Shown: one piece after another, positions 11,660 through 33,448 of the stretch | Layout: each line of letters opens with the position of its first letter | Numbering within the stretch: the first letter of the stretch is position 1 | NCBI GenBank assembly: GCA_913041415.1 | Contig: CAJWHS010000012.1 | Span: 1 to 43,107, forward strand | DNA length: 43,107 nucleotides | Source of the DNA: an uncultured Acidimicrobiaceae bacterium | Lineage (GTDB): Bacteria; Actinomycetota; Acidimicrobiia; Acidimicrobiales; Aldehydirespiratoraceae | Direction: 5' to 3' | Position numbers and translations under genes: made by a program | Notes under the pieces: model-generated | What the model saw: the letters and a program-made list of their open reading frames with translations, nothing else | Told to the model about the DNA's origin: nothing | The model's database searches: none

Positions 11660-11919
11660 CCGCCCATAGTCGCGCCCGAACCCGGCTTCGACAGAACCGG
11701 CCGAACCACAGAACAGACCCGGGACAATCGCTCAGGAATCGGTACGCTTGCGGAGTGGACAGACGTCCAGGAACCGTCACGCAAGGTCCAGAGGATGAAG
11801 CCGACCGCCTTTGCCGCCAACGGGATCCAGGTCCTGGTTTTCGCCCGCTGCGCGGCATCGCCTCGACCGGTGCGCATGGCGGCACCCTAGGTCGCCCGGC
11901 ACCTGCAGGCCGACCGGCC

Positions 11920-16493: not shown

Positions 16494-17690
16494 TCAGGCG
16501 TGGGGTTGGGTCGCCATCGCCTCGGCGATCACCTCAGCGGCCGACGCCACCCCGGAACCACGGAGCGGCGCGCCGACGACCCGAAGGCCTGCCTCGATCG
16601 TGCCGAGCGCCCCGAGGAGCGCAGGGGGGTTGACGTGACCCATGTGCCCGATCCGGAAACTTCCGGTGTGGTCCATGACGCCGAGACCGATCGTGAGCCC
16701 AGCGGTGTTCTCGCAAACGTTCGCGAGCGCCAGTGCATCGACGTGAGGGGTCAGAACGGTGGTGACGCAATTGGCCTGTGCTCCGCGCTCTCGGATCATC
16801 AACTCGACCCCACCAGGGGTCTCCCACGTGAGCACCGCTGACCGGACGGCATCGCCCAGCACCCGATGGCGATGCCAGCGTACGGCGAGGGTCTCCTCGT
16901 CAATCATGCCCAGTGCCTCACGGAGGGCGAACAAGTGGCTGACCGGCGGGGTGCCGGAGAACTGCTGGTAGATCTGCTCGCCCTCAAGTCGGGCTTGCCA
17001 GTCGAAGTACCCGTCGCGCAGGTCGGCGTTGCGTCCGCGCTCGATCGCTCGCTCGTTGGCCCAGACGATTCCGAGACCCGGTGGGGTCATGAGACCCTTC
17101 TGTGACGCAGCAATGGTGATATCGACACCCCAGGCATCCATGTGGAATTCGTCGCACGCCATGGACGCAATGCAGTCGACGACGAAGAGGGCCGATGATC
17201 CCGATGCAGCAATCGACCGCCCGATCGCTTCGATGTCGTTGCGGACCGAAATCGCCGTGTCGACGTGGACTGCGAGAACGGCAGCAAACTCGTCAGCCGG
17301 GCCAGCGGCGAGTCGAGCCGCAACGGCCTCGGCGTCGACCGGTGAGCGAGGCGTCGCTGGCAGGGTCTCAACCTCGATGCCGGACCGCTCGAGGAACAAC
17401 CCCCACACAGCCGGAAAGCGACCCGATTCCAGAACGAGGACCTTGTCGCCTCGACTGAGTGTGTTGGCGGCCGCCATCTGCCAACCGGAATGACCGTTCC
17501 CGATGCTCAAGAAGGCGCGACCGGCGGTGTCGGCTATTGCCGGTAGCCGAGCGAACACTTCGTCGGCGACATCGAGCAACTCGCCTTCGTAGATGTTGGG
17601 CATTGGCAGCCGGAAGGCGGCGAGCACCCGTTCGGGCATGACCGAGGGACCGGGGATCGCCACCATCGGGGTTCCGTGTCGCAACGTCAT
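16494..17690 (-). CDS. Class V aminotransferase, alanine/serine-glyoxylate type
   Basis: The protein has 398 residues. The N-terminus reads MVAIPGPSVMPERVLAAF, the PLP-contacting Asp is in VVDCIASMA (Asp172), and the PLP lysine is Lys198 in ASQKGLMTPPG. The layout fits the alanine-glyoxylate/serine-glyoxylate/serine-pyruvate aminotransferases, which move amino groups between small amino acids and glyoxylate or hydroxypyruvate. A paralogue sits at 24095..25222. The ATG at 17690 has TACGGT (minus reading of 17698..17703) 7 bases upstream, which rules out the longer in-frame extension. It lies 86 bp downstream of the cyclic-nucleotide-binding gene on the same strand. Confidence 0.88.
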   Translation of the reverse strand: MTLRHGTPMVAIPGPSVMPERVLAAFRLPMPNIYEGELLDVADEVFARLPAIADTAGRAFLSIGNGHSGWQMAAANTLSRGDKVLVLESGRFPAVWGLFLERSGIEVETLPATPRSPVDAEAVAARLAAGPADEFAAVLAVHVDTAISVRNDIEAIGRSIAASGSSALFVVDCIASMACDEFHMDAWGVDITIAASQKGLMTPPGLGIVWANERAIERGRNADLRDGYFDWQARLEGEQIYQQFSGTPPVSHLFALREALGMIDEETLAVRWHRHRVLGDAVRSAVLTWETPGGVELMIRERGAQANCVTTVLTPHVDALALANVCENTAGLTIGLGVMDHTGSFRIGHMGHVNPPALLGALGTIEAGLRVVGAPLRGSGVASAAEVIAEAMATQPHA

Positions 17691-17776
17691 CGCCGGGACC
17701 GTAGTCCTGGGCGCACCGTTCCGCTCGACCCGGCTGAGCCGTCGATGCGCGTTCTTTGGCTGTGAGCCGGTGGGGC

Positions 17777-18187
17777 TCAGGCAGCCTGACGGGATTCGGC
17801 GGTGGCGGCGACGAACGCAGCGAACGCCGGGCACTCATCAAGCACGGTGGCGAACTCGCGGCGGTTGAACGCCAGGACGTCGGCGTCGCTAAGCGCCGAG
17901 ACGGTGGCGGTGCGGCGGGAGTTCTCGAGCAGGGCGATTTCGCCGACGATGTCACCAGCGCCGAGGGTGGCGACCTCGTCGCCTTCGCGACTGACCGCGA
18001 GCGAACCATCGAGGACGACGAGGAACTCGCGGCCGACGCCCGCTTCGTTCATGATGGTCGTGCCACCGGGAACGGTGACACGGGTGCCGAGTCGGAGCAC
18101 TGTCTCGAGCTCGGCTGTTCGGACGGTCGAGGCGACCGCGGAATCAAGCAGAGTGGTAGGGATGTCGATTCGACGACGGAGCAGCAT
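17777..18187 (-). CDS. Stand-alone cyclic nucleotide-binding domain protein
   Basis: The protein has 136 residues. The only domain is a cNMP-binding fold: VTVPGGTTIMNEAGVGREFLVV-like strands, then the phosphate-binding cassette VGEIALLENSRRTATVSAL with the Glu and Arg that hold cyclic nucleotide. There is no DNA-binding, channel or enzyme domain, so it probably acts as a sensor or buffer that binds a partner (inference). ATG 18187 has GGAGG 9 bases upstream. An in-frame ATG at 18232 follows TACAGT (minus reading of 18239..18244) by 6 bases and would give 151 residues. That hexamer could also simply mark the transcript start for the 18187 start. Confidence 0.8.
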   Translation of the reverse strand: MLLRRRIDIPTTLLDSAVASTVRTAELETVLRLGTRVTVPGGTTIMNEAGVGREFLVVLDGSLAVSREGDEVATLGAGDIVGEIALLENSRRTATVSALSDADVLAFNRREFATVLDECPAFAAFVAATAESRQAA

Positions 18188-18340
18188 TGGGGGATACCTC
18201 CGGGTTTCGCTCCGCACGGAAGTTGCGGGCATGTCTTTACTGTACGGACGCAAGCCGATCGGGGGATGCTGCTGCGACAACCGTCACATCGATGCTCGAC
18301 GAGCCGGTCAGCGATTCGAAACAGTGCAGACATTACCGAT

Positions 18341-18356
18341 TTGAACGATCGTTCAA
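18341..18356. promoter_or_regulatory. Perfect 16-bp palindrome, likely TetR operator
   Basis: TTGAACGATCGTTCAA is a perfect palindrome ending 5 bases before GTG 18362 of the broken Rieske oxygenase gene. Its symmetry, length and GAACG half-sites resemble operators of TetR-family repressors. A TetR-like gene, itself damaged, lies 2.2 kb downstream (20604..21191). The site is intact although the gene it would control is not. Confidence 0.6.
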
Positions 18357-18361
18357 TCAAC

Positions 18362-19487
18362 GTGCCGCTCCCGAGCTCCAAGGACCTCGTATCGATCGGG
18401 GCCGGCTACCACGAGGATCCAGCAGCCTCGATGTCGCTGCGCGCCGACGCCTACACCTCACCCACTTGGTTCCCCCACGAGCAGCAGGCGACCTTCGCCC
18501 GCACCTGGCAGTGGATCGACCATGTCGAGAACGTCCGAGAGCCGGGTCGCTATGTCACCGCACAGATCGCCGGGATGTCGATCGTCGTCGTGCAAACCCA
18601 AGAGGACGAACTCAAGGCCTTCTAAAACGTCTGCAAGCACCGGGCGCACGAACTCGTCTCTGGTTCGGGAACCACCCGCAACCTGGTGTGCCCATATCAC
18701 GCCTGGACCTACGACTTCGACGGCCACCTCACCGGTGCCCGCCGCACGGGCGGCCTGATCGGATTCGACACCGCCGAGATCTGCCTCGATGAGGTCCAGG
18801 TCACCGAGTTCGGTGGGTTCGTCTACGTCAACCTCGACCCGGACGCAGCACCCCTCGCCGAGCAGGCGGGCGAGCTCGGCGCGGAGATCGCCCACTGGGC
18901 ACCCGACGTTGAGCAGTTGACGTTTGCTCATCGTCTGACCTACGAGATTGAGTCGAACTGGAAGAACGTCGTCGACAACTTTCTCGAGTGCTACCACTGC
19001 CACGTCGTTCACAAGGACTTCTCCTCTCTCGTCGACATGGACACCTACAAGGTGACCACCCACGGGATCTACAGCTCCCACATGGCCGAGGCCGGGAAGA
19101 GCACGAATTCTGCCTACGACGTCAGCGAGGCCACGGTCACCGGTCTGGTGGCTGTGGCCCAACACCTGCCTGATGCGCTACCCGGGTCGCGACAACTTCA
19201 TCGTCATGCACATCATCCCCGTCGGGCCGGAGCGGACGCTCGAGACGTACGACTTCTTCCTAGAGACAGCCGAACCCAACTAGGCCGAACTCGACTCGAT
19301 TCGCTGCATCGACGACGTACTCCAACCCGAAGACACCGGTCTCGTCGAGAGCGTGCAGCGCGGTATGCCCACCCCCGCCTTCGATCAGGGGTGCGTCGTG
19401 CACGACCCGACCGGCTCCGGACTCTCCGAGCACGCCGTGCACCACTTCCACGGCCTCGTACTCGACGCGTATCGCGCCGGCACATGA
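18362..19487 (+). pseudogene. Rieske-type ring-hydroxylating/betaine oxygenase, disrupted
   Basis: A whole Rieske oxygenase can be read by joining frames. The Rieske cluster ligands are in CKHRAHEL and CPYHAWTYDFDG; the mononuclear iron site is in NWKNVVDNFLECYHCHVVH; the C-terminal part reads WLWPNTCLMRYPG, then ERTLETYDFFLE and VESVQRGM. Three lesions break it: TAA at 18623..18625 where Tyr is expected (AF-stop-NVCKHR), a net +1 frameshift near 19146, and TAG at 19281..19283 where Glu fits (AEPN-stop-AELDSI). The architecture is that of alpha-subunit oxygenases such as the glycine betaine (GbcA) or carnitine types, which demethylate quaternary amines. The start may be GTG 18362 or ATG 18431. 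The upstream palindrome is intact. Confidence 0.82.
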
Positions 19488-19495
19488 GTCGGATG

Positions 19496-19840
19496 TCAGT
19501 CAGGAAAGCTCACGAGGATCGCCGCGCAGGCGATCGTGACCCCGCCCGTACCGTCGGCATCAATGGGCGGAACGTTCAAGCCGCCCCTTTCGGCCCGGAC
19601 GGTCACGACGCCGTACGGCACCTCTTCGGCGACCGCGTCGAGGTCCACAGCGTCGGGCTTGGCGCAGCCGATCATCACATTGACGTGCATGTCGTCGCGG
19701 GACTTGCCGGCCGCATTGAAGAGGTTGAGCGAACTGTGCCGAAGGGCGTCGAAGACCGCCCGTCGGGCAGCCTTGGTGTAGTCGCGGCCTCGGACGTCGA
19801 CGCCCATGCCCATCTCGGTGATCCAGCGCGTGGTGCTCAT
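19496..19840 (-). CDS. Lin0512 family protein
   Basis: The protein has 114 residues. It has the family pattern of a short strand ending EMGMGVDVRGRDYTKAARRAVFDAL, then VNVMIGCAKPDAVD, PYGVVTVRAERGG and GVTIACAAILVSF. The function of the family is unknown; the fold is expected to be a small alpha/beta trimer. It sits between the broken Rieske gene and the SDR, on the opposite strand, and its link to them is not established. The ATG at 19840 has TACCGT (minus reading of 19848..19853) 7 bases upstream, which fixes the start and excludes the longer Arg/Pro-rich extension. Confidence 0.8.
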   Translation of the reverse strand: MSTTRWITEMGMGVDVRGRDYTKAARRAVFDALRHSSLNLFNAAGKSRDDMHVNVMIGCAKPDAVDLDAVAEEVPYGVVTVRAERGGLNVPPIDADGTGGVTIACAAILVSFPD

Positions 19841-19875
19841 GGCCGGAACGGTAACTGCCGGGGGCGCGGGGCGAC

Positions 19876-20604
19876 GTGGTCGCTGGTGGGCGCGGCGGTG
19901 TCGGACGGGCGATCCGCAAACGCTTCGAGGCCGAAGGAGCAATCGTCTATGCCAGAGATCTGAGCGACGGCGGCAGTGTCGGTGGTGACGCGCCTGCCGG
20001 CTCCTTTCTCCCCCTCAAGGTCACCGGCGAGGCTGCCGTCATGGCCGACTTCGCCCATGCGCGCGACACCCACGGCCGACTCGACATCCTCGTGAACGCT
20101 GCCGGTATCGAGAGCGAGACCACGACGCTTGCGCAATGGAACCAGATCTTCGCCATCAACTTCACCGGCACCTTTCTCACGTCGAAGCATGCGCTGCAGC
20201 TCCTTCGCAAGAGCGAAGGCGACGCCTCAATCATCAACTTCGGCAGCTACAACGGCTTCATCGCCGACCCCGAACTGGCGGCGTATTGCGCCACCAAGGG
20301 TGCTGTCCACGCCCTCACCAAGGCAATGGAGTGGGATCACTCTCCCGAATGCATTCGAGTCAAGGCCGTGTGCCCCGGCTACGTCGATACACCGATGCTG
20401 CAATCGTTCTTTCAGGAGAACAGCAATATCGACTCGCTGCAACAAGCCGTCCGCGATGTCCGTCCGTTGCGAACGTTCGGCACACAGACCGACATTGCGA
20501 ACCTCGTCAACTGGCTGGCGAGCGACGAGGCTCGCTACGCATCCAGCCAATTGTGGTTGCTCGACGGGGGACTGTCGGCACAGGTCCAGCAGATGCGGCT
20601 CTAA
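19876..20604 (+). CDS. Short-chain dehydrogenase/reductase
   Basis: The protein has 242 residues. It has a glycine-rich NAD(P) motif AGGRGGVG at the very start, NAAG at residues 74-77, the catalytic Ser near 124 (NFGSYNG) and Tyr137/Lys141 in YCATK, then PGYVDTP. The N-terminus is shorter than usual: most SDRs have about 7-10 residues before the glycine motif, and only CTG 19855 and GTG 19876 are available after a stop at 19852. A trimmed 5' end is therefore possible. Its stop TAA overlaps the ACG that replaces the start of the TetR gene, so the two were probably an operon. The substrate is unknown. Confidence 0.82.
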   Translation: MVAGGRGGVGRAIRKRFEAEGAIVYARDLSDGGSVGGDAPAGSFLPLKVTGEAAVMADFAHARDTHGRLDILVNAAGIESETTTLAQWNQIFAINFTGTFLTSKHALQLLRKSEGDASIINFGSYNGFIADPELAAYCATKGAVHALTKAMEWDHSPECIRVKAVCPGYVDTPMLQSFFQENSNIDSLQQAVRDVRPLRTFGTQTDIANLVNWLASDEARYASSQLWLLDGGLSAQVQQMRL

Positions 20605-21191
20605 CGCGCAACGACACCACAGCCGATAAGCGGGAACACATCCTCGCAATGCTCGCCCGCGACGGCATCTCTGACGTGACCATGCGAGCCGTCACCCGAG
20701 AGGCGGGGGTCGCACTCGGCCTCGCCGCCTACCACTTCGAGGACAAGGACGGTCTCGTCGCTGCGGCGCTCGAACTGATCGCCGACGGCGATGCCGCCCT
20801 CGTCGAGCCGACCCCTTGGGCCGAGCCCGGCGAAGCGCTGCGGACCGCCCTCCACCGCATCGCCGACCCTGATTTCTTGTCCGTGCCCTACCTGGCTCTC
20901 CGGCTCCAACTGTGGTCACTCGCCGGCGTCGACGAGCGGTACGCCGCGATCAACCAGGCGGCGCAACGACGCTATCTCACCGGTCTGGTCGCATTGTTGG
21001 CCGCCGCCCGGCCCGATCTCGATCCCGACGAAGTCGAGCGGCGGGCCAACGACATCCTCATCGTGCAAAACGGGGTCTGATTGATCGCGGTCCTCGTTCC
21101 CGACCCCGATACGGTCGCCCGTTCCGTGGACAGGACCGAGGCGATCGCCTTCAATGACAGGCCTGACAGCACGGCGACCCGCTCAGCCTGA
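20604..21191 (+). pseudogene. TetR family regulator, start and Trp codon lost
   Basis: The N-terminus has a TetR helix-turn-helix (KREHILAMLARDGISDVTMR, then REAGVALGLAAYHF). The ligand domain follows and reads ERRANDILIVQNGV, then an in-frame TGA at 21078..21080 where family members have Trp. The same frame continues LIAVLVPDPDTVARSVDRTEAIAF to a stop at 21191, which is the normal C-terminus. At the expected start, ACG overlaps the SDR stop as TAACG; a TAATG overlap would be usual, so one transition seems to have removed the ATG. The nearest upstream start, GTG 20553, overlaps the SDR by 52 bp. It is the best candidate regulator for the palindrome at 18341. Confidence 0.68.
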
Positions 21192-21194
21192 GCG

Positions 21195-22289
21195 TCAGGC
21201 CCGCACGGCGGCATGCGCCGCGTGCACGACCCGGATCGATCGCATGACGTGGTCGGTCGAAGGGAACATCCGGTTCATCGCATAGACGACCGCGAGGTCC
21301 TGTTCGAGGTCGACGACCGCCATCGAGCCGCCAAGGCCGGCCCACCACACCGTCTCGTCGTTCACCCCGACCGGCATCGATCGAGAGCTGTGTCCGAAGC
21401 CGACGCCCATACGGACATTCGTGCCCGTGACAGGGTCGGGACCGTCCCAGTCAACCGTGCGGACGAGATCCAGCGCACCCTCGCCCAGCGGGTCACAATC
21501 GATGGCCGAGTGGCGAGTGAGGAGGCTGAGCAACTGCGCGACGGAGCGAGCGTTGCCGTGGCCGTTCGACGAGGGGAACTCTGACGCCTGCCACCGAGCC
21601 GTGTTGACGTCAGCCACGCGGTCGGGACCACCGCTCGATGGCGGCATTGCGTCGTGGTCGGTCTCGGCAATCCGCAGCCGGACCGACTCGGGAACGCCTA
21701 GGTGGAAGTCGATGTCATACGGTTCGGTGAGTTCAGCGCGGAGCCAGTCGCCCATCGTCTGACCGGCGACCCGGCGCACGACCTCGCCGAGCAGGAACCC
21801 CTGGGTGAAGGCGTGATACGCAAACGCCTCCCCGGGAGGCCGGATCGGCGGCTGCGCGGCCAAAAGGGAGCAGCATTCGTCCCAGTCGAACATCGTCTCG
21901 TGCTTGAGTGGCGGCCGGAACTCGTGGAGCCCGGCTAGATGGGTGAGCGCGTGGCGGACGGTGACATCACCTTTCCCGGCGGCGGCGAACTCGGGCCAGT
22001 GCACGGCGATCGGATCGTCGACCGACAGCACACCCCGGTCGTGGAGGAGCAGCACGACGAGCGCCGCGACCGTCTTGGTCGTGCTCCACAAATTGACGAT
22101 CGTATCGGACTCCCACGGGCGGGATCCGTCAACCGACGCCGACCCGCCCCAGATGTCACAGACGAGACGTCCCCGATGCACGACCGCAACACTTGCGCCG
22201 AGTTCCGCATCCTCGTCGAAGTTGGTGGCGAGCGCCGATCGCACCGGTTCGTACCGCTCGTCGGCGTCGCCGTTGATCGTGGGTGCCAT
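21195..22289 (-). CDS. Serine hydrolase, beta-lactamase/EstB family
   Basis: The protein has 364 residues. The class C beta-lactamase fold has the nucleophile motif STTK (Ser69-Lys72), then LTHLAGL, the Tyr motif FAYHAFTQGFLLGEVV (Tyr158) as in EstB-type esterases, and a C-terminal WWAGLGGSMAVVDLEQDLAVVYAMN. There is no signal peptide, so it is likely a cytoplasmic esterase or amidase and not a resistance enzyme. ATG 22289 has GGAGG 6 bases upstream. It is divergent from the DUF427 gene across 46 bp and convergent with the TetR remnant. Confidence 0.88.
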   Translation of the reverse strand: MAPTINGDADERYEPVRSALATNFDEDAELGASVAVVHRGRLVCDIWGGSASVDGSRPWESDTIVNLWSTTKTVAALVVLLLHDRGVLSVDDPIAVHWPEFAAAGKGDVTVRHALTHLAGLHEFRPPLKHETMFDWDECCSLLAAQPPIRPPGEAFAYHAFTQGFLLGEVVRRVAGQTMGDWLRAELTEPYDIDFHLGVPESVRLRIAETDHDAMPPSSGGPDRVADVNTARWQASEFPSSNGHGNARSVAQLLSLLTRHSAIDCDPLGEGALDLVRTVDWDGPDPVTGTNVRMGVGFGHSSRSMPVGVNDETVWWAGLGGSMAVVDLEQDLAVVYAMNRMFPSTDHVMRSIRVVHAAHAAVRA

Positions 22290-22335
22290 CGGCCACCTCC
22301 GCATCCGGGCGAACGACGGCGATCGTAGTCCTGAC

Positions 22336-22830
22336 ATGCGCCGCCCCACACCCCTGCCTGCCGGGCCCGGTCAGGAGTCCGTCTGGGACTACCCCCGCCC
22401 ACCCCTCATCGAAATTGTCGATCGTCACGTCCGCGTCGAAGTCGGCGGCCTGGTCGTGGCCGACACCCGCGCCCCCATTCGGATCCTCGAGACGAGCCAC
22501 CCGCCCACCTATTACGTCAACCCCAACGATGTGGAACTCGGATTGCTGCAGGCCATTCCCGGCAGCACGTATTGCGAATGGAAGGGCGAGGCCGCCTATT
22601 TCGATGTCGTCGTTCCCGATGGGCGGGTTGCGCGTGCGGCCTGGTGGTTCAAGGAACCAACCGGCGACTTTGTCGACCTCAAGCACCATCTTGCCTTCTA
22701 CCCGGCACTCGTGGCGTGCTTCGTCGACGGCGAACGGGTCCAGCCGCAGCCCGGGTTGTTCTACGGCGGCTGGATCACGAGTGATGTGGTCGGCCCGTTC
22801 AAAGGCGAGCCGGGCACCAACTTCTGGTAG
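22336..22830 (+). CDS. DUF427 domain protein
   Basis: The protein has 164 residues. It carries the DUF427 pattern: VWDYPRPP, VRVEVGGLVVADT, ILETSHPPTYYVNPNDV, STYCEWKGEAAYFDVV, AAWWFKEP, and the end FYGGWITSDVVGPFKG. DUF427 proteins are small beta-rich proteins of unknown biochemical function, common in actinobacteria and proteobacteria. It lies immediately upstream of the dmdA-like gene, separated by 86 bp that contain a palindrome and promoter, so it is probably a separate transcript. Confidence 0.85.
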   Translation: MRRPTPLPAGPGQESVWDYPRPPLIEIVDRHVRVEVGGLVVADTRAPIRILETSHPPTYYVNPNDVELGLLQAIPGSTYCEWKGEAAYFDVVVPDGRVARAAWWFKEPTGDFVDLKHHLAFYPALVACFVDGERVQPQPGLFYGGWITSDVVGPFKGEPGTNFW

Positions 22831-22875
22831 CGATCATGGCGCTGCCGATTGATCTCAGCCGCCGGATCTCACCCA

Positions 22876-22910
22876 CTCCTTAGCCCGAGGCTAAGGAGGG
22901 CCGATAACCT
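22876..22910 (+). promoter_or_regulatory. Palindromic operator plus -10 element upstream of dmdA-like gene
   Basis: A perfect inverted repeat with arms CTCCTTAGCC (22876..22885) and GGCTAAGGAG (22889..22898) has a 3-base centre. It is followed 6 bases later by TAACCT (22905..22910), which ends 6 bases before ATG 22917. The repeat covers the place where a -35 box would be, and no T-run follows, so it reads as an operator and not a terminator. The half-sites differ from the TetR-like palindrome at 18341, so a different regulator is likely. Confidence 0.6.
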
Positions 22911-22916
22911 GACAAG

Positions 22917-24026
22917 ATGGCCCAGCTCACGATTGGCTCTCGGATCAAAAAGTCGCCGTTCCACGACGCTGCGGCTGCGGCGGGCGCGACGCATTACACA
23001 ATCTATAACCGCATGTACATGCCGACGAGCTACGGCGACGCCCTCGGCGAGTACGCGCGCCTGATAACTGGTGTGTCGATCTGGGACGTCGGCGCTGAGC
23101 GCCAAGTCGAGATCGAGGGCCCCGAGGCCCGTGCCTTCGCCGACTATGTCTCGTGCCGCGACCTCTCGACCCTGAAGGTCGGCCGAGGCCGCTACACACC
23201 GATGGCCAACTTCGACGGCATCCTTATCAACGACCCGATCGCGATGCCGATCCGTGAGGACCTGTGGTGGCTGTCGATCGCCGACAGCGACGTCGCCTTG
23301 TTCTGCCAGGGCGTCGCCGGAGCAAGGGGCTTCGACGTAGCCGTCCGCGAGCCCGACGTCTCGCCACTCGCGATCCAGGGGCCCAAGGCCGAAGATCTCG
23401 TTCGTGATCTGCTCGGCGACATCGTCGACGAGATCGGCTTTTTCCAGTTCCGCGAGGTCGAACTCCAGAGCATCCCGATGGTCGTCATGCGGTCCGGCTG
23501 GAGCCGTCAGGGTGGCTTTGAACTCTTCTTGACCGACGGCAGTCGCGGTCAGGAACTCTGGGATCTCGCCTTCGCAGCCGGCGAAGCGTACGGGGTCACC
23601 CCCGGAACCCCCCACCAGATGGAACGCATCGAGAACGGCCTGTTGTCGTATCGCTCCGACACCGACGACGACACTGATCCGGTCGAAGCAGGCCTCGGCA
23701 AGTGGTGCAACATGGACGCCAGCGACTTTGTCGGCAAGGCCTCGATTATCGCCCGCCACGAGAACCCCGACGACCGAAAGCTGCTCGTCAACGTGCACAT
23801 CGACGGCGACATGCCGGCCTTAGAGAATCCGTGGCCGGCGACCGCCGACGGTCAGCCCGCCGGCGAACTACGCGTCGGTGTCTGGTCACCCAAGCTGGAC
23901 CGCAACATCGGACTTGCGTTAGTGCCGGTCCGCCATGCTGCGCCAGGGACCACGCTCGACGTCGATGCTGAGGGTGTGGCGATCACGATGACCGTCACCG
24001 ACGTCCCGTTCGGCGACAGCCTCTGA
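22917..24026 (+). CDS. dmdA: DmdA-like DMSP demethylase (GcvT fold)
   Basis: The protein has 369 residues, the same length as the SAR11 enzyme. Matches run along its length: KSPFHDAAAAAGATHYTIYN, SIWDVGAERQVEIEGPEA, VSCRDLSTLKVGRGRYTPM, DLWWLSIADSDVALF, VREPDVSPLAIQGPKAEDL, RSGWSRQGGFELFL, QMERIENGLLSYRSD and VEAGLGKWCNMD. DmdA moves a methyl group from dimethylsulfoniopropionate to tetrahydrofolate, giving methylmercaptopropionate. Related GcvT-fold enzymes act on glycine betaine derivatives, so the substrate needs proof. A palindrome and leaderless promoter precede it. It is convergent with the aminotransferase gene, near a DAO flavoenzyme and a broken Rieske oxygenase. Confidence 0.78.
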   Translation: MAQLTIGSRIKKSPFHDAAAAAGATHYTIYNRMYMPTSYGDALGEYARLITGVSIWDVGAERQVEIEGPEARAFADYVSCRDLSTLKVGRGRYTPMANFDGILINDPIAMPIREDLWWLSIADSDVALFCQGVAGARGFDVAVREPDVSPLAIQGPKAEDLVRDLLGDIVDEIGFFQFREVELQSIPMVVMRSGWSRQGGFELFLTDGSRGQELWDLAFAAGEAYGVTPGTPHQMERIENGLLSYRSDTDDDTDPVEAGLGKWCNMDASDFVGKASIIARHENPDDRKLLVNVHIDGDMPALENPWPATADGQPAGELRVGVWSPKLDRNIGLALVPVRHAAPGTTLDVDAEGVAITMTVTDVPFGDSL

Positions 24027-24094
24027 GCGACCGGGGTCCACGCCGACCTCGCTTCCTCCGAAAAGTCGATGATCGATCGCTGGCCTGGCACGAC

Positions 24095-25222
24095 CTAGAG
24101 CACGTGGTCGAGGACGGCCTCGAGCGACGCGACCGTGCGATCAACGTTGTGCAGCTTGTCGAGGCCGAACAGCCCGAGGCGGAAGGACGAGAAATCGTCA
24201 CCCTCATCCACCTGCAACGGCACACCACCGGCGATCTGCATACCTGCCGCGGCGAACTTGGCGCCGCTCTTCACCTCAGGGTCACTCGTGTAGGACACGA
24301 CAACACCTGGCGCCTGGAAGCCCTCGGCTGCGACGGAGACCACGCCCCGTGACTCAAGCGCAGCACGCACCTTCGTGCCGAGTTCCTGCTGATCGGCCAT
24401 GACCTTGTCGAAGCCGTACGCCTCGGTCTCGAGCATGACGTCGCGGAAGGAACGCAGCGCATCGGTAGGCATGGTGGCGTGGTAGGCGTGACCACCGGTT
24501 TCGTAGGCGTGCATGATCTCGCGCCACTTGCGCAGGTCGCAGGCGAACGAAGAACTGTGCGTCTCCGTCAGACAGGCGTGGCCCCGTTCGCTGAGCATGA
24601 CGAGCCCGGCGCACGGCGACCCGCTCCAGCCCTTCTGGGGCGCCGAGATCAACACATCGACACCGGTGGCCGCCATATCGACCCAGATCGCCCCCGATGC
24701 AATGCAATCGAGCACCAGCAGGCCGCCCACCTCGTGGACGGCGTCGGCGAGCGCCGAGATGTAGTCGTCGGGCAGGACCATGCCGGCCGAGGTCTCGACG
24801 TGCGGCGCGAACACAACCGCCGGTTTCTCTTCGCGGATCGTGGCGACGACGTCGTCGATCGGGGCAGGGGCGAACGGCTCCTGGCTACCGGGCGCGGCCC
24901 GACGGGCCTTCATCACCGTGTGGCTCGCCGGGATGTTTCCGGCCTCGAAAATCTGGGTCCAGCGATAGCTGAACCATCCGTTGCGCACGACAAGTACGTG
25001 CTCCCCGGTGGCGAACTGGCGGGCGACCGCCTCCATGCCGAAGGTGCCGCTGCCGGGCACGACCGCAACGGCATCGGCGTTGTACACGTCGCCGAGTACC
25101 CGGGAGATGTCGTTCATCACCATCTGGAACGACACGCTCATGTGGTTGACAGAGCGGTCGGTGTACACGACGGAGTACTCGAGAAGGCCGTCGGGATCGA
25201 TCTCGGGAAGCAGGCCAGGCAT
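24095..25222 (-). CDS. Class V aminotransferase, second paralogue
   Basis: The protein has 375 residues. VVPGSGTFGMEAVARQF binds the PLP phosphate region, Asp172 is in LDCIASGA, and the PLP lysine is Lys197 in SAPQKGWSG. It is a serine-pyruvate/alanine-glyoxylate type enzyme, paralogous to the one at 16494..17690 but clearly diverged at the N-terminus. Next to a DmdA-like methyltransferase and a DAO flavoenzyme, it could recycle glyoxylate, glycine or serine made during demethylation (inference). ATG 25222 has TAGGCT (minus reading of 25230..25235) 7 bases upstream, so it can be transcribed alone as well as from the flavoenzyme promoter 58 bp upstream. Confidence 0.88.
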   Translation of the reverse strand: MPGLLPEIDPDGLLEYSVVYTDRSVNHMSVSFQMVMNDISRVLGDVYNADAVAVVPGSGTFGMEAVARQFATGEHVLVVRNGWFSYRWTQIFEAGNIPASHTVMKARRAAPGSQEPFAPAPIDDVVATIREEKPAVVFAPHVETSAGMVLPDDYISALADAVHEVGGLLVLDCIASGAIWVDMAATGVDVLISAPQKGWSGSPCAGLVMLSERGHACLTETHSSSFACDLRKWREIMHAYETGGHAYHATMPTDALRSFRDVMLETEAYGFDKVMADQQELGTKVRAALESRGVVSVAAEGFQAPGVVVSYTSDPEVKSGAKFAAAGMQIAGGVPLQVDEGDDFSSFRLGLFGLDKLHNVDRTVASLEAVLDHVL

Positions 25223-25280
25223 GGCGTGGAGCCTACTGCTCACCAGTCGACCGATGACGAGCGCGGGCAACCAGGGCTCC

Positions 25281-26786
25281 TCAGACCCACGGACAGTTCG
25301 AGTTGCGGTCGCCGTAGGTGGTGCCGGCGGCGAAACGGTCGAAGCCGAACGGTGTCAATTCCCACGGCATTTTGCCGGTGATGAGCATGTCAGCGATGAG
25401 CTTGCCTACACCAATCATCTTGAACCCGTGGTTAGAGTCGGCGATGACGAAGGCGTTGTCGGCAACATGGTCGAAGATCGGCACATTGTCGGGCGTGAAC
25501 GCTCCGATGCCGCCGTTGCGACGCTGCTTGAAATAAGGCTCCAGATTCTCGAAACGCTTGAAAAGCATGCCGAGGGTCTTGCAGTAGTACTCGGGGAACC
25601 ACTCGTCGGCCTGGTAGGCGTCAGAGAGGTGGCCGTAGGGCTCAACCTGGGCGGAATCGCCGATCGGGATCGGGATCGTGCCGCCTTGCAGACCAGGGGC
25701 GCCGACCCGTTCGGCTGCATACCGGGTGTAGGTGTAGACGTGGTCTTGGATCATTTCGCCGTCGTCGCCGTACACGGGTGTGTTCATCAGTTCGACGTGC
25801 AGCACCGGGGCGTCTTTGCCGTCGGCGGTCCGGTAGTCGACCCCGGGCGGCATCCAGACCTCGCCCTCGAGGAGCCGCCAGTAGGTCCACATGGCGTGGT
25901 CGTTCGCAATGTGGCCGTCGGGGTAGACGATGTCGAGCGTATTGGGCCCCCCGAGCCATTCCCAGTGGCGGGGTGTCCATGCTCCCGCGCCGATGACGAC
26001 CTGATCACAGGTGATCGTGCCGGCGGTGGTTTCGACCGCCCTCACGAAGCCGCCTCCCACGCCGCCGCCGGCGCCCGACGATGCATTGCCCGAACCCATG
26101 TCGTAGCCGGTGACTTCGACGCCGTAGACGCGTTGCACCCCCCATTGTTGACACTTCTGGTCGAGGCCCCAAATCACCATGTGTGTGCCCGCATATCCCG
26201 ATCGGTGTTCGTGGAGCACGACATCGCACTTGTCGGTCTTGAAGTCGGGCCAGATCGAGGTCAGGAAGCGATGGGCGTCTTCGCCGGTGTAGAGGTCGCT
26301 TGGGTAACCCGAATCGATCTGGCTCTGGTTGAGTTTGATGTAGTCCTCGGTCTGGTTCTCTTCGCCGATCGACACATACCCGACCTGCTGGAAACCAAAG
26401 TTGACCGGGTCGGACTCCCATACCTCGGCACTGGCTCGCAGGATCGAGTGGAGCGGGCCGGTCATGTAGAGGTTGCGGACACAGCCGCAGGCAAGGCCGG
26501 TGGCACCAGCTCCTGGCCCTTGCTTGTCGATCAGGACGACATCGCTGCCGTTGCCCTTGCCGCTCCGCTCGAGCGCCATGGCCAGGTGGTAGGCGGTCGA
26601 CAGGCCGTGGATGCCGGCACCGACGACCACATAGCTCGCGCTCGACGGCAGGGTGGAGACATTGCTCAGCGGAACGACCGGGGGATTCTGCAGGACGCCG
26701 TCGACCTGATCGGGCAGGGGGCGATCCATGAAGGGATACCACTGGTTGTGGCCTGCGGTGTTGGGACCGGCATTCGGAAAATCCAT
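25281..26786 (-). CDS. FAD-dependent oxidoreductase, DAO/sarcosine oxidase type
   Basis: The protein has 501 residues. The FAD-binding motif VVVGAGIHGLSTAYHLA is near residues 53-69, followed by VVLIDKQGPGAGATGLACGCVRN with cysteines at 100 and 102, and a C-terminal DNVPIFDHVADNAFVIADSNHGFKMIGVGKLIAD that closes the FAD site as in DAO-family amine oxidases. It probably oxidises an N-methylated amino acid such as sarcosine or dimethylglycine. A Gly/Ser-rich insert lies at residues 231-246. An N-terminal extension of about 50 residues has no signal peptide. ATG 26786 has a full promoter upstream. It appears to be the first gene of a short operon with the aminotransferase. Confidence 0.85.
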   Translation of the reverse strand: MDFPNAGPNTAGHNQWYPFMDRPLPDQVDGVLQNPPVVPLSNVSTLPSSASYVVVGAGIHGLSTAYHLAMALERSGKGNGSDVVLIDKQGPGAGATGLACGCVRNLYMTGPLHSILRASAEVWESDPVNFGFQQVGYVSIGEENQTEDYIKLNQSQIDSGYPSDLYTGEDAHRFLTSIWPDFKTDKCDVVLHEHRSGYAGTHMVIWGLDQKCQQWGVQRVYGVEVTGYDMGSGNASSGAGGGVGGGFVRAVETTAGTITCDQVVIGAGAWTPRHWEWLGGPNTLDIVYPDGHIANDHAMWTYWRLLEGEVWMPPGVDYRTADGKDAPVLHVELMNTPVYGDDGEMIQDHVYTYTRYAAERVGAPGLQGGTIPIPIGDSAQVEPYGHLSDAYQADEWFPEYYCKTLGMLFKRFENLEPYFKQRRNGGIGAFTPDNVPIFDHVADNAFVIADSNHGFKMIGVGKLIADMLITGKMPWELTPFGFDRFAAGTTYGDRNSNCPWV

Positions 26787-27737: not shown

Positions 27738-29297
27738 ATGAATCAACCGAGCCTCGAGCGGGGCGCCGACGACCAGACGTTCCACGACGTCATCGAGGCC
27801 TACTGCGGCGCGCTGTCGTACGCGCCGGGTGAGACCGCGACGGTGCACGTCTCTACCCACGCCGCAACGTACGACGTGGTTGTCGAGCGGTGGGGTGGTG
27901 AGCGGACCATCGCCTGGGCGGCCAACACGGTGCCCGGCACCTTCCACGAACCCCCGGCCGATGCCGACGCGAACGGGTGCGGTTGGCCGACGTCGATCGA
28001 GATCCCGATCGACGAATCGTGGCGGTCGGGCTTTCATCTGATCACCCTTCGCGCCCACGACGGACCCGACGGCCGACGGGTTGCCCACACCGGATTCGTC
28101 GTGCGGGCCGGAGCGCAGCGCCAGCGTGCCGTGCTCGTGCTCGCCACCAATACCTGGAACGCCTACAACACGTGGGGCGGCAAGAGCCTCTACACCGGCG
28201 GCCACCAGGTCTCGTTCCGGCGACCGTGGGCCCGCGGCATCCTCGACCGGCCCGAGGTCGCGCGTGATGACCGAAAGTCACGACCGGTCCACACCGGCGA
28301 GGAGCCCGACGACGGGGGGTTCGTTTTCCAGGAGTACCGCCTGCCCCGGAACTACCCATCGGCGATCGGCTCGACCGGTTGGTTCACCCACGCCCGTCGC
28401 TTCGTCGAGTGGGCCGAGCGCGACAGGCACTCCTTCGACTTGCTCGCATCGACCGACCTCGACCTCCACCCCGATTGTCTCGATGGCTACGACCTCGTCC
28501 TCGGGGTTGGTCACGACGAATACTGGTCGGCGGGACAGCGCACGGCGATCGAGACCCACGTGCGGCGCGGTGGCCACTACGCCTCGTTCTCGGGCAACAC
28601 GATGTTCTGGCAGGTCCGCATCACCGACGGCGATCGGGGTACGGCGATGATCGGGCACAAGTATGCAGCCCATCGCAACGATCCGGTCGTAGGTACCGAC
28701 GACGAAGCATCGATGTCGGGCATGTGGGCCGACCCACTCGTTGGCCGTCCCGAATGGTCGTTCCTCGGCGCCGGATCGGCCTTCGGGCTGTACGCCCGGT
28801 TCGGGAGCGGGACACCACGAGGTGTCGGTGGCTTCGTCGTCTACCGGTCCGACCACTGGCTCTTCGAGGGAACCGGCCTCGGGTACGGCGACGTGCTCGG
28901 CCTCGACGCGGGCATCGTCGGCTACGAAACCGTCGGCTGCCCGATCCAACTCGACGACGTGAACCTTCCGGCGCCGCGCACTCGGGACGACCTTCCAGCA
29001 GAGCAGGAGATCGTGGCGTGGACACCTGCCACCAACCTCGGAATGGGTGACTACCCGAAGTCGGTTGCGGCGTTCGGCGACCAGGGCGACCTCGAGTTCA
29101 TCGCCGACCGGGTGTTCGCCGATTCGGCCGACCCGATCGGATCGGCTCGCCACGGCAACGCCGTGATGTCGGTCGCTCGTCCCTTCGACAATGGCGGTGA
29201 GGTCGTCGTGTGTGGCACGACCGACTGGGTGTTCGGTCTCGGCGACCCCCGAGTCGCGCGAGTAACCGCCAACGTGCTCGATCGGTACCTCGACTGA
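27738..29297 (+). CDS. N,N-dimethylformamidase large-subunit-like protein
   Basis: The protein has 519 residues. An N-terminal beta-sandwich-like part is followed by the DMFase large-subunit core: VLVLATNTWNAYNTWGGKSLY, FVEWAERDRHSFDLL, STDLDLHPD, YDLVLGVGHDEYWSAGQR, and HYASFSGNTMFWQVR. DMFase splits dimethylformamide to dimethylamine and formate and needs a small subunit; no such gene is next to it, and the protein is shorter than the characterised large subunit (about 760 residues). It may act on another amide alone. CAGACT (27725..27730) ends 7 bases before ATG 27738, a variant of the leaderless element seen elsewhere. The gene follows yaaA after 32 bp. Confidence 0.8.
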   Translation: MNQPSLERGADDQTFHDVIEAYCGALSYAPGETATVHVSTHAATYDVVVERWGGERTIAWAANTVPGTFHEPPADADANGCGWPTSIEIPIDESWRSGFHLITLRAHDGPDGRRVAHTGFVVRAGAQRQRAVLVLATNTWNAYNTWGGKSLYTGGHQVSFRRPWARGILDRPEVARDDRKSRPVHTGEEPDDGGFVFQEYRLPRNYPSAIGSTGWFTHARRFVEWAERDRHSFDLLASTDLDLHPDCLDGYDLVLGVGHDEYWSAGQRTAIETHVRRGGHYASFSGNTMFWQVRITDGDRGTAMIGHKYAAHRNDPVVGTDDEASMSGMWADPLVGRPEWSFLGAGSAFGLYARFGSGTPRGVGGFVVYRSDHWLFEGTGLGYGDVLGLDAGIVGYETVGCPIQLDDVNLPAPRTRDDLPAEQEIVAWTPATNLGMGDYPKSVAAFGDQGDLEFIADRVFADSADPIGSARHGNAVMSVARPFDNGGEVVVCGTTDWVFGLGDPRVARVTANVLDRYLD

Positions 29298-29317
29298 GCC
29301 ATCCGGCCGGGAGTTGA

Positions 29318-30274
29318 TCAGGCGGTCAACGACCGGAACCGATCGAGGTCGACGTTGCCGCCCGAGAGGGTGATGCCCACCCGCTGACCCGTCACGTCAA
29401 CGGCACCGCTGAGTACCGCCGCAAGCGCAGACGCGCCCGACGGTTCGACGACGACGTTGAGGCGTTGGAAGGCGAGTCGCATCGCGGCCACGATCTCCGC
29501 GTCGGTCACCGTGACGATCTCGTTGACCCGCTCACGGATCACCGCAAAGGTGTGTACGCCTGGCGCTCGCGTTTGCTGACCGTCGGCGATGGTTCGAGGG
29601 GTATCGGGGAGTTCGACGATACGCCCCTGCTCCAGTGATTGCTTGACGTCATCGCCTGTCTCGGGCTCGACCCCGATGACGCGGACAGGGCCCATTGACG
29701 TGGCGACCGTGGCGCACCCCGAGATCAGTCCGCCCCCACCGACGCACACGACGAGCGTGTCCACAAAGGCGATGTCGAAGAGTTCCATCGCCAGGGTTCC
29801 CTGACCTGCCATCACGTCGCGGTGATCGAATGGCGGGATGAGGGTGAGGCCTCGCTGCTCGCCTAGTCGCTCCCCGATGTCCTCCCGGCGCTCGGTGTAG
29901 CGGTCATAGGAGATGACGTCGGCACCGTAGCCAACCGTCGCCGCACGCTTCACCGCCGGAGCATCATCGGGCATCACGATCACCGCGGGGATGTCGTGCA
30001 ACGCAGCGGCGAGCGCGATCGCCTGCCCGTGGTTGCCTGAGGAGTAGGTCACCACACCGCGAGCGCGTTCATCGGGGGGTAGCGAGGCGATGGCGTTGTA
30101 GGCGCCGCGGAACTTGAACGAACCGGTGCGCTGGAAGCACTCGGCCTTGATCCGGAGATGAGCGTCGAAACGCTCGTCGAGGGTTCGGCTGGTGAGTTCG
30201 GGGGTGATGTTGGCGATACCGGCGAGCCGCTCGGCTGCCCGGGCGACGTCGTCGACGTGCAACTCGGGTTCCAT
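29318..30274 (-). CDS. Threonine/serine dehydratase (PLP fold type II)
   Basis: The protein has 318 residues. The PLP lysine is Lys54 in GSFKFRGAYN; SSGNHGQAIALAAA binds the substrate carboxylate; the phosphate loop is VVCVGGGGLISG; the C-terminus reads GITLSGGNVDLDRF. The length without a regulatory ACT domain fits catabolic threonine/serine dehydratase or serine racemase, which convert Ser or Thr to pyruvate or 2-oxobutyrate plus ammonia. It could consume serine made from C1 units in this region (inference). ATG 30274 has TACGGT (minus reading of 30281..30286) 6 bases upstream. It is divergent from aroQ. Confidence 0.9.
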   Translation of the reverse strand: MEPELHVDDVARAAERLAGIANITPELTSRTLDERFDAHLRIKAECFQRTGSFKFRGAYNAIASLPPDERARGVVTYSSGNHGQAIALAAALHDIPAVIVMPDDAPAVKRAATVGYGADVISYDRYTERREDIGERLGEQRGLTLIPPFDHRDVMAGQGTLAMELFDIAFVDTLVVCVGGGGLISGCATVATSMGPVRVIGVEPETGDDVKQSLEQGRIVELPDTPRTIADGQQTRAPGVHTFAVIRERVNEIVTVTDAEIVAAMRLAFQRLNVVVEPSGASALAAVLSGAVDVTGQRVGITLSGGNVDLDRFRSLTA

Positions 30275-30334
30275 CTCGCGACCGTAGGCGAGAACGTCAC
30301 GCAGTGGCTGGGCAATTCCTCGTACTGTTCAGGC
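30275..30334. promoter_or_regulatory. Divergent leaderless promoters, dehydratase and aroQ
   Basis: TACGGT on the minus strand (30281..30286) ends 6 bases before the dehydratase ATG, and TACTGT on the plus strand (30323..30328) ends 6 bases before the aroQ ATG. No ribosome-binding site is seen on either side of this 60-bp gap. Confidence 0.6.
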
Positions 30335-30772
30335 ATGGCGCAGCAGATCCTCGTGCTCAACGGACCGAACCTGAACCTCCTCGGCACGCGCGAGCCCGAG
30401 GTCTACGGCACCCACACGCTCGACGACATCGTCGCTGAGCTCACCGCCATCGCCGCCGAGCGGGGCGCGGAACTGCGTCACGTCCAGTCAAACCACGAAG
30501 GCACATTGATCGATGCCCTTCATGACGCCCGCGAGTGGGCCAACGGCGTGATTTTCAATCCGGGCGCCTACACCCACACCTCCATCGCGCTTCGGGACGC
30601 CGTCATCAGCAGCGAACTACCGGTCGTTGAGACCCATCTCTCGAACGTGCACGCGCGAGAGGAATTCCGGCACCGGTCGATGCTTTCGGGTGTGTGTCTC
30701 GGCGTCGTCTTGGGCTTCGGAAAGCACAGTTACGCGGCAGCGCTCGATGCTCTGCTGCGTCATCTCGACTGA
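30335..30772 (+). CDS. aroQ: Type II 3-dehydroquinate dehydratase
   Basis: The protein has 145 residues. The full family signature is present: LNGPNLNLLGTREPEVYG with lid Arg19 and catalytic Tyr24, SNHEGTLIDALHDA, FNPGAYTHTSIALRDA with Asn74, and VETHLSNVHAREEFRHRS with catalytic His100. It catalyses reversible dehydration of 3-dehydroquinate to 3-dehydroshikimate in the cytoplasm (shikimate pathway). It is alone here, not in an aro operon. The start at ATG 30335 is set by TACTGT 6 bases upstream. Confidence 0.96.
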   Translation: MAQQILVLNGPNLNLLGTREPEVYGTHTLDDIVAELTAIAAERGAELRHVQSNHEGTLIDALHDAREWANGVIFNPGAYTHTSIALRDAVISSELPVVETHLSNVHAREEFRHRSMLSGVCLGVVLGFGKHSYAAALDALLRHLD

Positions 30773-30817
30773 ACCACCTGTCGATCGGGGTGCACAGCCA
30801 CCGGTGATGCCGATCGA

Positions 30818-31381
30818 TCAACGCGTCAACCGCTGCTGATCGAGCGTTCGGACCACGTGCAGATCTGACCCCATCGACTCGACCTGTTCTTGCAGGGCGT
30901 CGAGATGTTTGCGTCGGGGCGCTGCATCCCACATGCCGGCGCCGGAGATCACGAATCCGACCGCATACACGAACCAGTGACCGCTGAGCAGGAAGCAGAC
31001 AAAGCCGATCCAGCCCGCTGCCTCGGCAAGGCCGATTCGGATGAAGGTGGCGCGCTGGTAGGAGCCGGCGAACGCCTCCGGCGACGACACGTCGAGCTCG
31101 TGCACGAACCGGGGCACGAGCATCTGTGCGAAGACGCCGAGCATTGCGGTGATCGCAATGCCTGTCGAGAGGCCGAGCGGGGCGTCGTCGCGTTGACCGA
31201 AGAGCAGCACCGGGATCCAGATGATCACCAACACGTTGGCGAAGCCGAGCCAGACCATCCGCATCGACTGCAGGCCCGAGGTCTGCCCGACCATCGCCCG
31301 CATGCCGATGAACGGCACGATCAACTTCGGGTAGGCCCGAAGTACGGGACCCCAGCCGGGGTCGGCGTGCGGCTTGCTCAC
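30818..31381 (-). CDS. Four-helix membrane protein coupled to pncA
   Basis: The protein has 187 residues with about four hydrophobic helices: ANVLVIIWIPVLLFG, IAITAMLGVFAQMLV, GWIGFVCFLLSG and FVYAVGFVISGAG. A basic C-terminal tail with LDALQEQVESMG follows. I recognise no family. Its GTG start overlaps the stop of pncA (GTGA), so it is translationally coupled as the third gene of pncB-pncA. A role in the membrane side of nicotinamide or nicotinate use is an inference from position only. Confidence 0.72.
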   Translation of the reverse strand: MSKPHADPGWGPVLRAYPKLIVPFIGMRAMVGQTSGLQSMRMVWLGFANVLVIIWIPVLLFGQRDDAPLGLSTGIAITAMLGVFAQMLVPRFVHELDVSSPEAFAGSYQRATFIRIGLAEAAGWIGFVCFLLSGHWFVYAVGFVISGAGMWDAAPRRKHLDALQEQVESMGSDLHVVRTLDQQRLTR

Positions 31382-31980
31382 ACCAATTCGATACCGGCGC
31401 TGGTCATCTCGGCCAGCGCGGCCTCGGTGGTATCGAGGGCGACGCCCGCGCAGTGGTCGAGCAGCACGCGAGTGTCAAAGCCCTCCGCCTTCGCGTCGAG
31501 TGCCGTGGCCCGAACACAGTGATCGGTGGCAAGTCCGACGACATCGACGGCCGTGACACCACGCGCAATCAGCCAAGCACCGAGCAGGACCGACTCGTCT
31601 GCTGACGCGGTTCCGTCGAAGCCGGTGTAGCTAGCTGTCGTGCGCCCCTTGAGGAAGAGCTCATCGATTGCGATGTCGAGATTGTCGTGGAACTCCGCAC
31701 CGGGCGTCTCGGCGCCGCAGTGGACCGGCCAGGTGTCGACGAAGGTCGGGGTGTCGTCACCGGTCACCCAGTGCTCGCCCGGATCTTCATGCCAGTCCTT
31801 GGTGGCGACGACGAACGCATAGGTTCCCTTGGCCCGGTCGAGGCCGACGGTGTCAGTGATCGACTGGGCGACAGCAGCGCCGCCGTCGACGGCCAGCGAA
31901 CCGCCTTCGCAAAAGTCGTTCTGCACGTCGACGACGACGAGGGCCTTCGGGGATTCCGACATAGGTGTGGTCTCGCTCAT
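31378..31980 (-). CDS. pncA: Nicotinamidase (isochorismatase-like hydrolase)
   Basis: The protein has 200 residues. The catalytic triad is visible as Asp18 (VVDVQNDFC), Lys111 (FLKGR) and Cys155 (ATDHCVRATALDA). The metal site is Asp62/His64/His70 in KDWHEDPGEHW. It hydrolyses nicotinamide to nicotinate, which the product of the upstream gene then uses. The ATG overlaps the pncB stop (ATGA), and the stop overlaps the start of the downstream membrane protein gene, so this is a tightly coupled three-gene NAD-salvage operon. Confidence 0.93.
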   Translation of the reverse strand: MSETTPMSESPKALVVVDVQNDFCEGGSLAVDGGAAVAQSITDTVGLDRAKGTYAFVVATKDWHEDPGEHWVTGDDTPTFVDTWPVHCGAETPGAEFHDNLDIAIDELFLKGRTTASYTGFDGTASADESVLLGAWLIARGVTAVDVVGLATDHCVRATALDAKAEGFDTRVLLDHCAGVALDTTEAALAEMTSAGIELV

Positions 31981-33338: not shown

Positions 33339-33448
33339 GTCTTCACCCTAACGGGACCCCACCATGACCTCGGCGTCGTTTGTGCGCTTGTGGTCGATCG
33401 ACAGCCCGGTCGGTCGGAATGTCCCGCCAAGGAGTACGTTTTTCCCTG

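Follow-up and report, generated by a model that had tools for sequence, protein, structure and literature searches.

A Rieske oxygenase operon in decay beside a kept DmdA-like methyltransferase gene in a genus of Acidimicrobiaceae

Introduction

Do catabolic genes that lie side by side in a bacterial genome serve one pathway? The question is raised by positions 18341 to 26786 of contig CAJWHS010000012.1 (assembly GCA_913041415.1; here G000:C12), a 43,107-nt stretch of DNA from an uncultured Acidimicrobiaceae bacterium, which was analyzed at its full length and is called the window below. The draft genome (G000) comprises 2.68 Mb in 143 contigs and is 96.85% complete; the other eight genomes of its genus (the congeners) are labeled G001 to G008. 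An earlier sequence-only reading named a Rieske oxygenase, an SDR, a TetR regulator, a DmdA-like methyltransferase, a DAO flavoenzyme, a class V aminotransferase, and Lin0512 and DUF427 proteins in this block and proposed that together they demethylate a methylated osmolyte. All of these genes are present, as judged by hidden Markov model (HMM) matches and, for the aminotransferase, by homology to the PDB entry 3ke3. The parts of the block are of known kinds, and dmdA from Acidimicrobiia is already in print. Our comparison suggests that the block is probably a genus-level neighborhood of catabolic modules, not one pathway.

Results

The Rieske gene of the window (18341 to 19487, forward strand; PF00848, Ring_hydroxyl_A, on its middle piece) is a pseudogene with a carnitine/choline-type signature. 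Compared with the intact copies in G001, G002, and G003, it carries in-frame nonsense codons at 18623 to 18625 (codon 118) and 19281 to 19283 (codon 340), and it lacks 8 bp at 19143 (codon 290); the intact G002 copy matches both the Rieske and Ring_hydroxyl_A models. At the 5′ end of the SDR gene (19876 to 20604, forward; PF13561, 151.3 bits), ~108 nt of G002 sequence, including the SDR start in our reading, are replaced by 4 nt. At the position where the TetR gene of the sisters (G001 to G003) has its start codon, the window gene (20607 to 21080, forward; PF00440, TetR_N, 32.5 bits) has no start codon, and a 12-bp deletion follows. Thus, the oxygenase arm is broken, as the sequence-only reading had claimed, and the decay is larger than that claim, with all three genes of the Rieske-SDR-TetR operon damaged in the window.

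We compared the ratio of nonsynonymous to synonymous substitution rates (dN/dS) in window comparisons with that between sisters. The SDR gene gave 0.32 to 0.34 in window comparisons versus 0.08 between sisters, and the window SDR is under relaxed selection. The TetR gene gave 0.19 to 0.29 versus 0.16. For the Rieske gene, the values were 0.29 to 0.48 versus 0.16 in the N-terminal piece, 0.10 to 0.13 versus 0.05 in the middle piece, and 0.05 to 0.18 versus 0.00 to 0.04 in the C-terminal pieces; the moderate dN/dS across most of the gene points to its recent death.

The operon is also degraded in G005, where three lesions break the Rieske gene (an insertion of 1 bp at codon 91 and stops at codons 241 and 306), the SDR match extends over 144 residues out of 254, and the SDR is followed by no TetR match. 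None of the Rieske lesions is common to G005 and the window; because all of them differ, the operon was inactivated at least twice. In G004, the sole Rieske gene is a 73% copy elsewhere in the genome, and G006, G007, and G008 have only distant homologues (27 to 35%). Sequencing error is unlikely to have caused the lesions. The source is a 143-contig draft assembly, which would suit an assembly or sequencing artifact, but the damage spans three adjacent genes and comprises nonsense codons, short deletions, and the replacement of 108 nt, the SDR dN/dS is raised, the neighboring genes are open, and the operon decayed differently in G005. We regard such an artifact as highly improbable.

By contrast with the oxygenase arm, the DmdA arm was described in the sequence-only reading as intact, and our measurements bear this out. 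The dN/dS values in window comparisons and between sisters, respectively, were 0.11 to 0.13 and 0.07 to 0.08 for the DmdA gene (22917 to 24026, forward), 0.11 to 0.14 and 0.02 to 0.06 for the class V aminotransferase gene (24095 to 25270, reverse), 0.09 to 0.10 and 0.06 for Lin0512 (19496 to 19843, reverse; PF09585, 105.5 bits; TIGR02058, 59.4 bits with a cut-off of 56.85), and 0.04 to 0.06 and 0.03 for the DAO gene (25281 to 26786, reverse; 501 aa; PF01266, 97 bits). All four genes are under purifying selection, and DAO is the most strongly conserved gene of the block. Two points temper the distinction between decayed and kept genes. The kept genes also lie above the sister values, which points to somewhat weaker constraint on all of these genes in the window lineage, and the end branch of the window DmdA measures 0.061 versus 0.009 to 0.015 in the sisters.

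DmdA and the aminotransferase were present in all eight genomes of the genus in which the spot was readable (G000 to G004 and G006 to G008). G005 was not scored as lacking DmdA, since one of its contigs ends inside the beta-lactamase gene and another starts inside the aminotransferase gene. DAO was absent from G002 and G008, both of which keep DmdA; there, yaaA and the aminotransferase gene lie 0.1 to 0.3 kb apart on one contig. Lin0512 was absent from G008. In genus g7, G026 and G031 have DmdA, DAO, and yaaA side by side, and G014 and G021 have DmdA and yaaA without DAO. DmdA and yaaA are neighbors, with no DAO between them, in four of the five g2 genomes read, and DmdA is also beside or near yaaA in genus g10. 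Because the DmdA-yaaA position is kept in g2, g7, and the congeners even without DAO, it is the older feature, and the adjacency of DAO is therefore weak evidence for a shared pathway.

The sequence-only reading had proposed that gene order be compared across Acidimicrobiia. Its expectation of a conserved order held in part: parts of the block were seen in all eight congeners, and the order is partly kept in a second genus. In other genera, Rieske-SDR also stands apart from DmdA and DAO. Around the pair in G018 and G009, the 13 to 19 kb read gave no match to DmdA, DAO, or the aminotransferase, and in G021 the Rieske-SDR-TetR genes are on a contig other than that of DmdA. One observation weighs against treating the oxygenase operon as a module of its own: in G021, G026, and G031, the Rieske gene adjoins orthologues of genes from the window region 27748 to 35317 (those at 30272 to 33368, and that at 27748 in G021 and G026), so the operon is not independent of the wider region.

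The type of oxygenase was assessed from its residues. Parts of PMC7948474 describe an aromatic residue at position 203 as marking the group Va Rieske oxygenases (acting on carnitine, choline, and benzalkonium) and Asn at this position as marking group Vb (glycine betaine and stachydrine), and the CntA variant Y203F as active. All nine intact Acidimicrobiia copies aligned have the motif FLECYHC (Phe203/Glu205), corresponding to YMECYHC in CntA, and the window pseudogene keeps this signature. The Rieske protein thus combines the aromatic residue 203 and the bridging Glu205 of group Va. It resembles the carnitine monooxygenase CntA in these features and over 353 residues (265 bits) but differs in having Phe for Tyr at 203, in its operon partners SDR and TetR, and in being dead in the window genome. 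No CntB-type reductase was seen beside the Rieske gene, although no search aimed at such a reductase was made. Among NCBIfam models, the best match was that of the glycine betaine monooxygenase GbcA of group Vb (NF058607), but the intact copy scored 159.8 bits, far below the cut-off of 670, and has Phe, not Asn, at 203. The aromatic residue argues against demethylation of glycine betaine, and the signature fits carnitine/choline-type oxygenases, not glycine betaine or stachydrine demethylases.

These data bear on the proposal that one pathway unites the block, with a quaternary amine demethylated in turn by the Rieske oxygenase, DmdA, and DAO, the C1 units passed to tetrahydrofolate, and the amino groups passed through the aminotransferases. 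Gene order is conserved within the genus, the DAO protein is distantly similar to the beta subunit of sarcosine oxidase, and in one of 80 DmdA loci from named genomes, that of an Anaerolineales genome (L150:8773-11110), the gene immediately upstream of the DmdA-like gene encodes a Rieske homologue 40% identical to that of G002; this Chloroflexota homologue has no aromatic residue at 203. However, DAO and the Rieske gene have each been lost where DmdA is kept, residue 203 in Acidimicrobiia is not of the group Vb type, and the genes are carried on both strands (Rieske, SDR, TetR, DUF427, and DmdA forward; Lin0512, the aminotransferase at 24095 to 25270, and DAO reverse), so the block is several units and not one operon. 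Furthermore, among the 80 loci, many of which extend as far as 10 kb to either side of DmdA and some much less, none other than L100 and L101 gave a DAO match, and L100 alone matched the aminotransferase; these two loci are related to the window and share its gene order. A single methylated-osmolyte pathway, the central proposal of the sequence-only reading, is thus unlikely.

What the kept DmdA-like protein does was considered next to its known relatives. It matches GCV_T and GCV_T_C (PF01571/PF08669), and ordinary GcvT function had been named beforehand as an outcome contrary to a demethylation role. The protein scored 155.5 bits with the GcvT model NF001567 (cut-off, 300) and 132.3 bits with TIGR00528 (cut-off, 235.85), and by these scores it is not GcvT. 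It resembles the DmdA of Pelagibacter ubique (3tfh) and roseobacters in its GCV_T fold family, its length, the signature RSGW.-QGG, and a match of 253 bits to 3tfh. It differs in having 36 to 39% identity to the DmdA of P. ubique and the named roseobacters, in falling outside their branch, and in having no dmdBCD nearby. The window sequence of the signature is RSGWSRQGG, which includes the tryptophan associated with dimethylsulfoniopropionate (DMSP). This residue, W171 of PMC7487153, which we mapped to W197 of 3tfh, is called key for DMSP in a portion of that paper that also records it in non-DmdA clades, so that the signature is not decisive.

A closer relative was found on a plasmid of Marivivens sp. 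LCG002. Plasmid proteins named DmdA were 38 to 40% identical to the window protein; the closest plasmid homologue, from Marivivens (46%), is not named DmdA, and other unnamed homologues range down to 27 to 37%. The Marivivens gene heads an operon in which genes for an AMP-binding protein and an acyl-CoA dehydrogenase and then dmdD follow. In a 61-row tree rooted at its midpoint, the window and Marivivens proteins fell in one 48-row group (100/97), and P. ubique DmdA and three named roseobacter DmdAs stood apart (100/99). The two proteins are 46 to 47% identical and have similar scores with the DmdA equivalog model NF009133 (354.1 and 360.5 bits), but the operon of the Marivivens gene has no counterpart near the window gene. 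When homologues in named genomes were ranked, L100 was from Actinomycetota and L101 to L103 were from Acidimicrobiaceae or Acidimicrobiales, and L104 was already alphaproteobacterial. For the counts of dmdB, dmdC, and dmdD, L100 was left out, as it is apparently congener G007, leaving 79 loci (L101 to L179). A co-directional dmdB or dmdD homologue lay 22 to 182 bp downstream in five of these (L157, L160, L167, L169, and L171), a convergent dmdC homologue was found in L153, and a dmdB homologue was found at 4.6 kb in L137 and L155. None of these eight loci is from Acidimicrobiia.

DMSP demethylation is the likeliest candidate function of the DmdA-like protein, and several results weigh against it. 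The NF009133 score lies below the cut-off of 410; all 10 relatives scored are also below it (332 to 403), Marivivens included. Phe replaces a folate-site Tyr of P. ubique DmdA in the window protein and its relatives from Acidimicrobiia; by our mapping, this Tyr is the folate-binding 180Y mentioned in part of PMC7487153. The window, the 27 relatives' stretches, and the Acidimicrobiia loci searched gave no dmdB, dmdC, or dmdD homologue in the vicinity of DmdA. No DmdD match was obtained in 22 of 23 genomes, G000 included, with one 34% match in G006, and the SBP56 methanethiol oxidase was found in none of the 23. A DmdC-like protein (45% in G000) was present in all 23 genomes, but this tells nothing, since all of them also have a DmdA-like match and none can serve as a DmdA-free control. 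Sections of published work provide some context: in dmdA-bearing SAR116, homologues of dmdB and dmdC with low identity are described, with no dmdD (PMC8547437), dmdA genes have been assigned to Acidimicrobiia (PMC13280387), and DMSP use in marine Acidimicrobiales is mentioned with Mizuno et al. 2015 as the source (PMC10205998).

The sub-threshold score and the lack of dmdBCD nearby would also suit an enzyme that takes an N-methyl donor (e.g., dimethylglycine or another betaine) and not DMSP, with DAO completing the demethylation. DAO is adjacent in genera g1 and g7, and the genes around a 37% homologue in Lichenihabitans include those for MTHFR, FolD, PurU, and an FAD oxidoreductase. However, the Lichenihabitans protein has the SELG motif type and groups with paralogues in the window genome, not with the window gene; DAO is dispensable beside DmdA; and the Marivivens operon protein, from the same group as the window protein, is likewise below the cut-off. 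The N-methyl donor is possible but doubtful, and DMSP remains our first candidate. The two paralogues in question, G000:C62:2755-3849 (42%) and G000:C2:33965-35044 (37%), are of the SELG motif type and grouped apart from the window gene.

The DAO protein shares its domain with sarcosine oxidase beta (TIGR01373) but scored 51.9 bits against a cut-off of 529.45 and, at 501 aa, forms its own conserved subfamily, with orthologues of 71 to 74% identity in other genera and families. An AlphaFold prediction based on three sequences had a mean predicted local distance difference test (pLDDT) score of 29.6 and was not used. Neither DAO nor Lin0512 had a match in the plasmid collection. Close orthologues (71 to 74%) follow hutI in a histidine-utilization cluster of other genera (L060:9131-10594, where DAO is directly after hutI, L062, L063, and L064), and orthologues lie ~4.4 kb from urocanase in G018, G034, G094, G134, and G191. 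A role in hercynine or methyl-histidine metabolism was considered and dropped, because no urocanase match was found in the window genome or other DAO holders (G000, G001, G003, G005, G006, G009, G024, G026, G029, and G063). A DAO paralogue (~41%; L074:5455-6786 and L076:9266-10597) adjoins glutamine-synthetase-like and glutamate-synthase-like genes, by eye those of the N-methylglutamate pathway, and in L074 a trimethylamine monooxygenase gene is nearby.

The aminotransferase at 24095 to 25270 is of the 3ke3 type (498 bits to this PDB homologue), has no Pfam match, and matched the NCBIfam PhnW and BhcA models only below their cut-offs. We examined its co-occurrence with Lin0512 in 100 relatives, using E values of up to 1e-8 for Lin0512 and up to 1e-100 for the aminotransferase. 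Lin0512 was found in 12 genomes and the aminotransferase in 20. Among the 49 genomes outside family f1, Lin0512 occurred in G052, G060, G063, and G077, all of them among the five with the aminotransferase (hypergeometric P = 2.4e-5), with the two genes on different contigs. The association is one-way, since Lin0512 is missing from 8 of the 20 genomes with the aminotransferase. Genome size may account for part of it: of the four genomes outside the family that hold both genes, three measure 4.5 to 5.1 Mb. Of 12 regions surrounding one or the other gene, 4 contain an alanine dehydrogenase gene, which is two genes away from Lin0512 in G063 and no more than ~6.5 kb from the aminotransferase gene in three g8 genomes; this would suit alanine/pyruvate-linked transamination. 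A literature search on Lin0512 found nothing. An undescribed pathway comprising Lin0512 and the 3ke3-type aminotransferase, perhaps with DAO and the DmdA-like protein, in which Lin0512 might be an enzyme or the partner of the aminotransferase, is conceivable but improbable. In Hyphomicrobiales, adjacent Lin0512 pairs (L148:12337-13040 and L161:12036-12742) lie ~1.2 kb beyond a DmdA-like gene, with formate-dehydrogenase-like genes, recognized by eye, on the other side.

Other genes lie within and beside the block. A beta-lactamase-like gene (21195 to 22349, reverse; HMM match) precedes the DUF427 gene (22333 to 22830, forward; PF04248, 104.2 bits), which is upstream of DmdA. Upstream of the Rieske pseudogene are a second class V aminotransferase gene, BhcA-like (16494 to 17834, reverse; Aminotran_5, 60.7 bits), with orthologues of 61 to 94% in all eight congeners, and an adjoining gene for a protein with a cNMP-binding domain (17777 to 18280, reverse; PF00027, 58.1 bits); the two travel with the block across the genus. 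The beta-hydroxyaspartate cycle was rejected, as the BhcA model NF045640 (cut-off, 650) gave 242.7 bits for this aminotransferase and 75.1 bits for that at 24095 to 25270. The serine dehydratase gene at 29318, proposed earlier as an outlet of the pathway, is conserved with other neighbors and in the closest genomes only. A rhodanese-domain gene of G001, G003, and G014 (L080:8627-9019, L081:16413-16805, and L090:8870-9232, all reverse) is mostly deleted in the window; its place is between the DAO and aminotransferase genes in two of these (G001 and G003) and, across the three genomes, between DmdA and either a methyltransferase gene or DAO. A class I methyltransferase gene, absent from the window, is directly after DmdA in G004, G007, G021, G014, and others (L084:11513-12127, forward; L088:6829-7464, reverse).

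Discussion

In the reading that we favor, the neighborhood holds separate modules, whose substrates and reactions we infer. In the first (Rieske-SDR-TetR), the residue signature suggests that the substrate of the oxygenase would be a quaternary amine, attacked in the manner of carnitine, choline, or benzalkonium oxygenases; the SDR would process its product and TetR would regulate the operon. This module is dead in the window genome and decayed separately in a congener. In the second, the DmdA-family enzyme, in its old position near yaaA, would most likely transfer a methyl group from a sulfonium compound, DMSP being the first candidate, to tetrahydrofolate, yielding 5-methyl-tetrahydrofolate and methylmercaptopropionate. 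The genes for the 3ke3-type aminotransferase, DAO, and Lin0512 have been kept, and no joint role with DmdA is assumed for them.

With the window protein, a second DmdA-type lineage, which falls below the NCBI model cut-off even though one of its members is in a dmdABCD operon, gains a branch from Acidimicrobiia; such a sub-threshold lineage bears on metagenome counts of DMSP demethylation. The oxygenase operon is a clean case of decay of a catabolic operon in two congeneric species, each through mutations of its own. In addition, the uncharacterized Lin0512 family is tied by co-occurrence to one aminotransferase, a link that can be tested.

The corresponding islands in two relatives, G021 and G003, contain a further gene. 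It encodes a reductive dehalogenase-like protein of 406 aa (L088:12789-14009 and L230:10653-11867; 82% alike) that scored 169.5 bits with TIGR02486 (cut-off, 160.35) and has two ferredoxin-type cysteine motifs. The gene is near FAD-monooxygenase, FAA-hydrolase, and nitroreductase-like genes. In the window, which is without this gene, the flanks are contiguous at 11814 to 11827.

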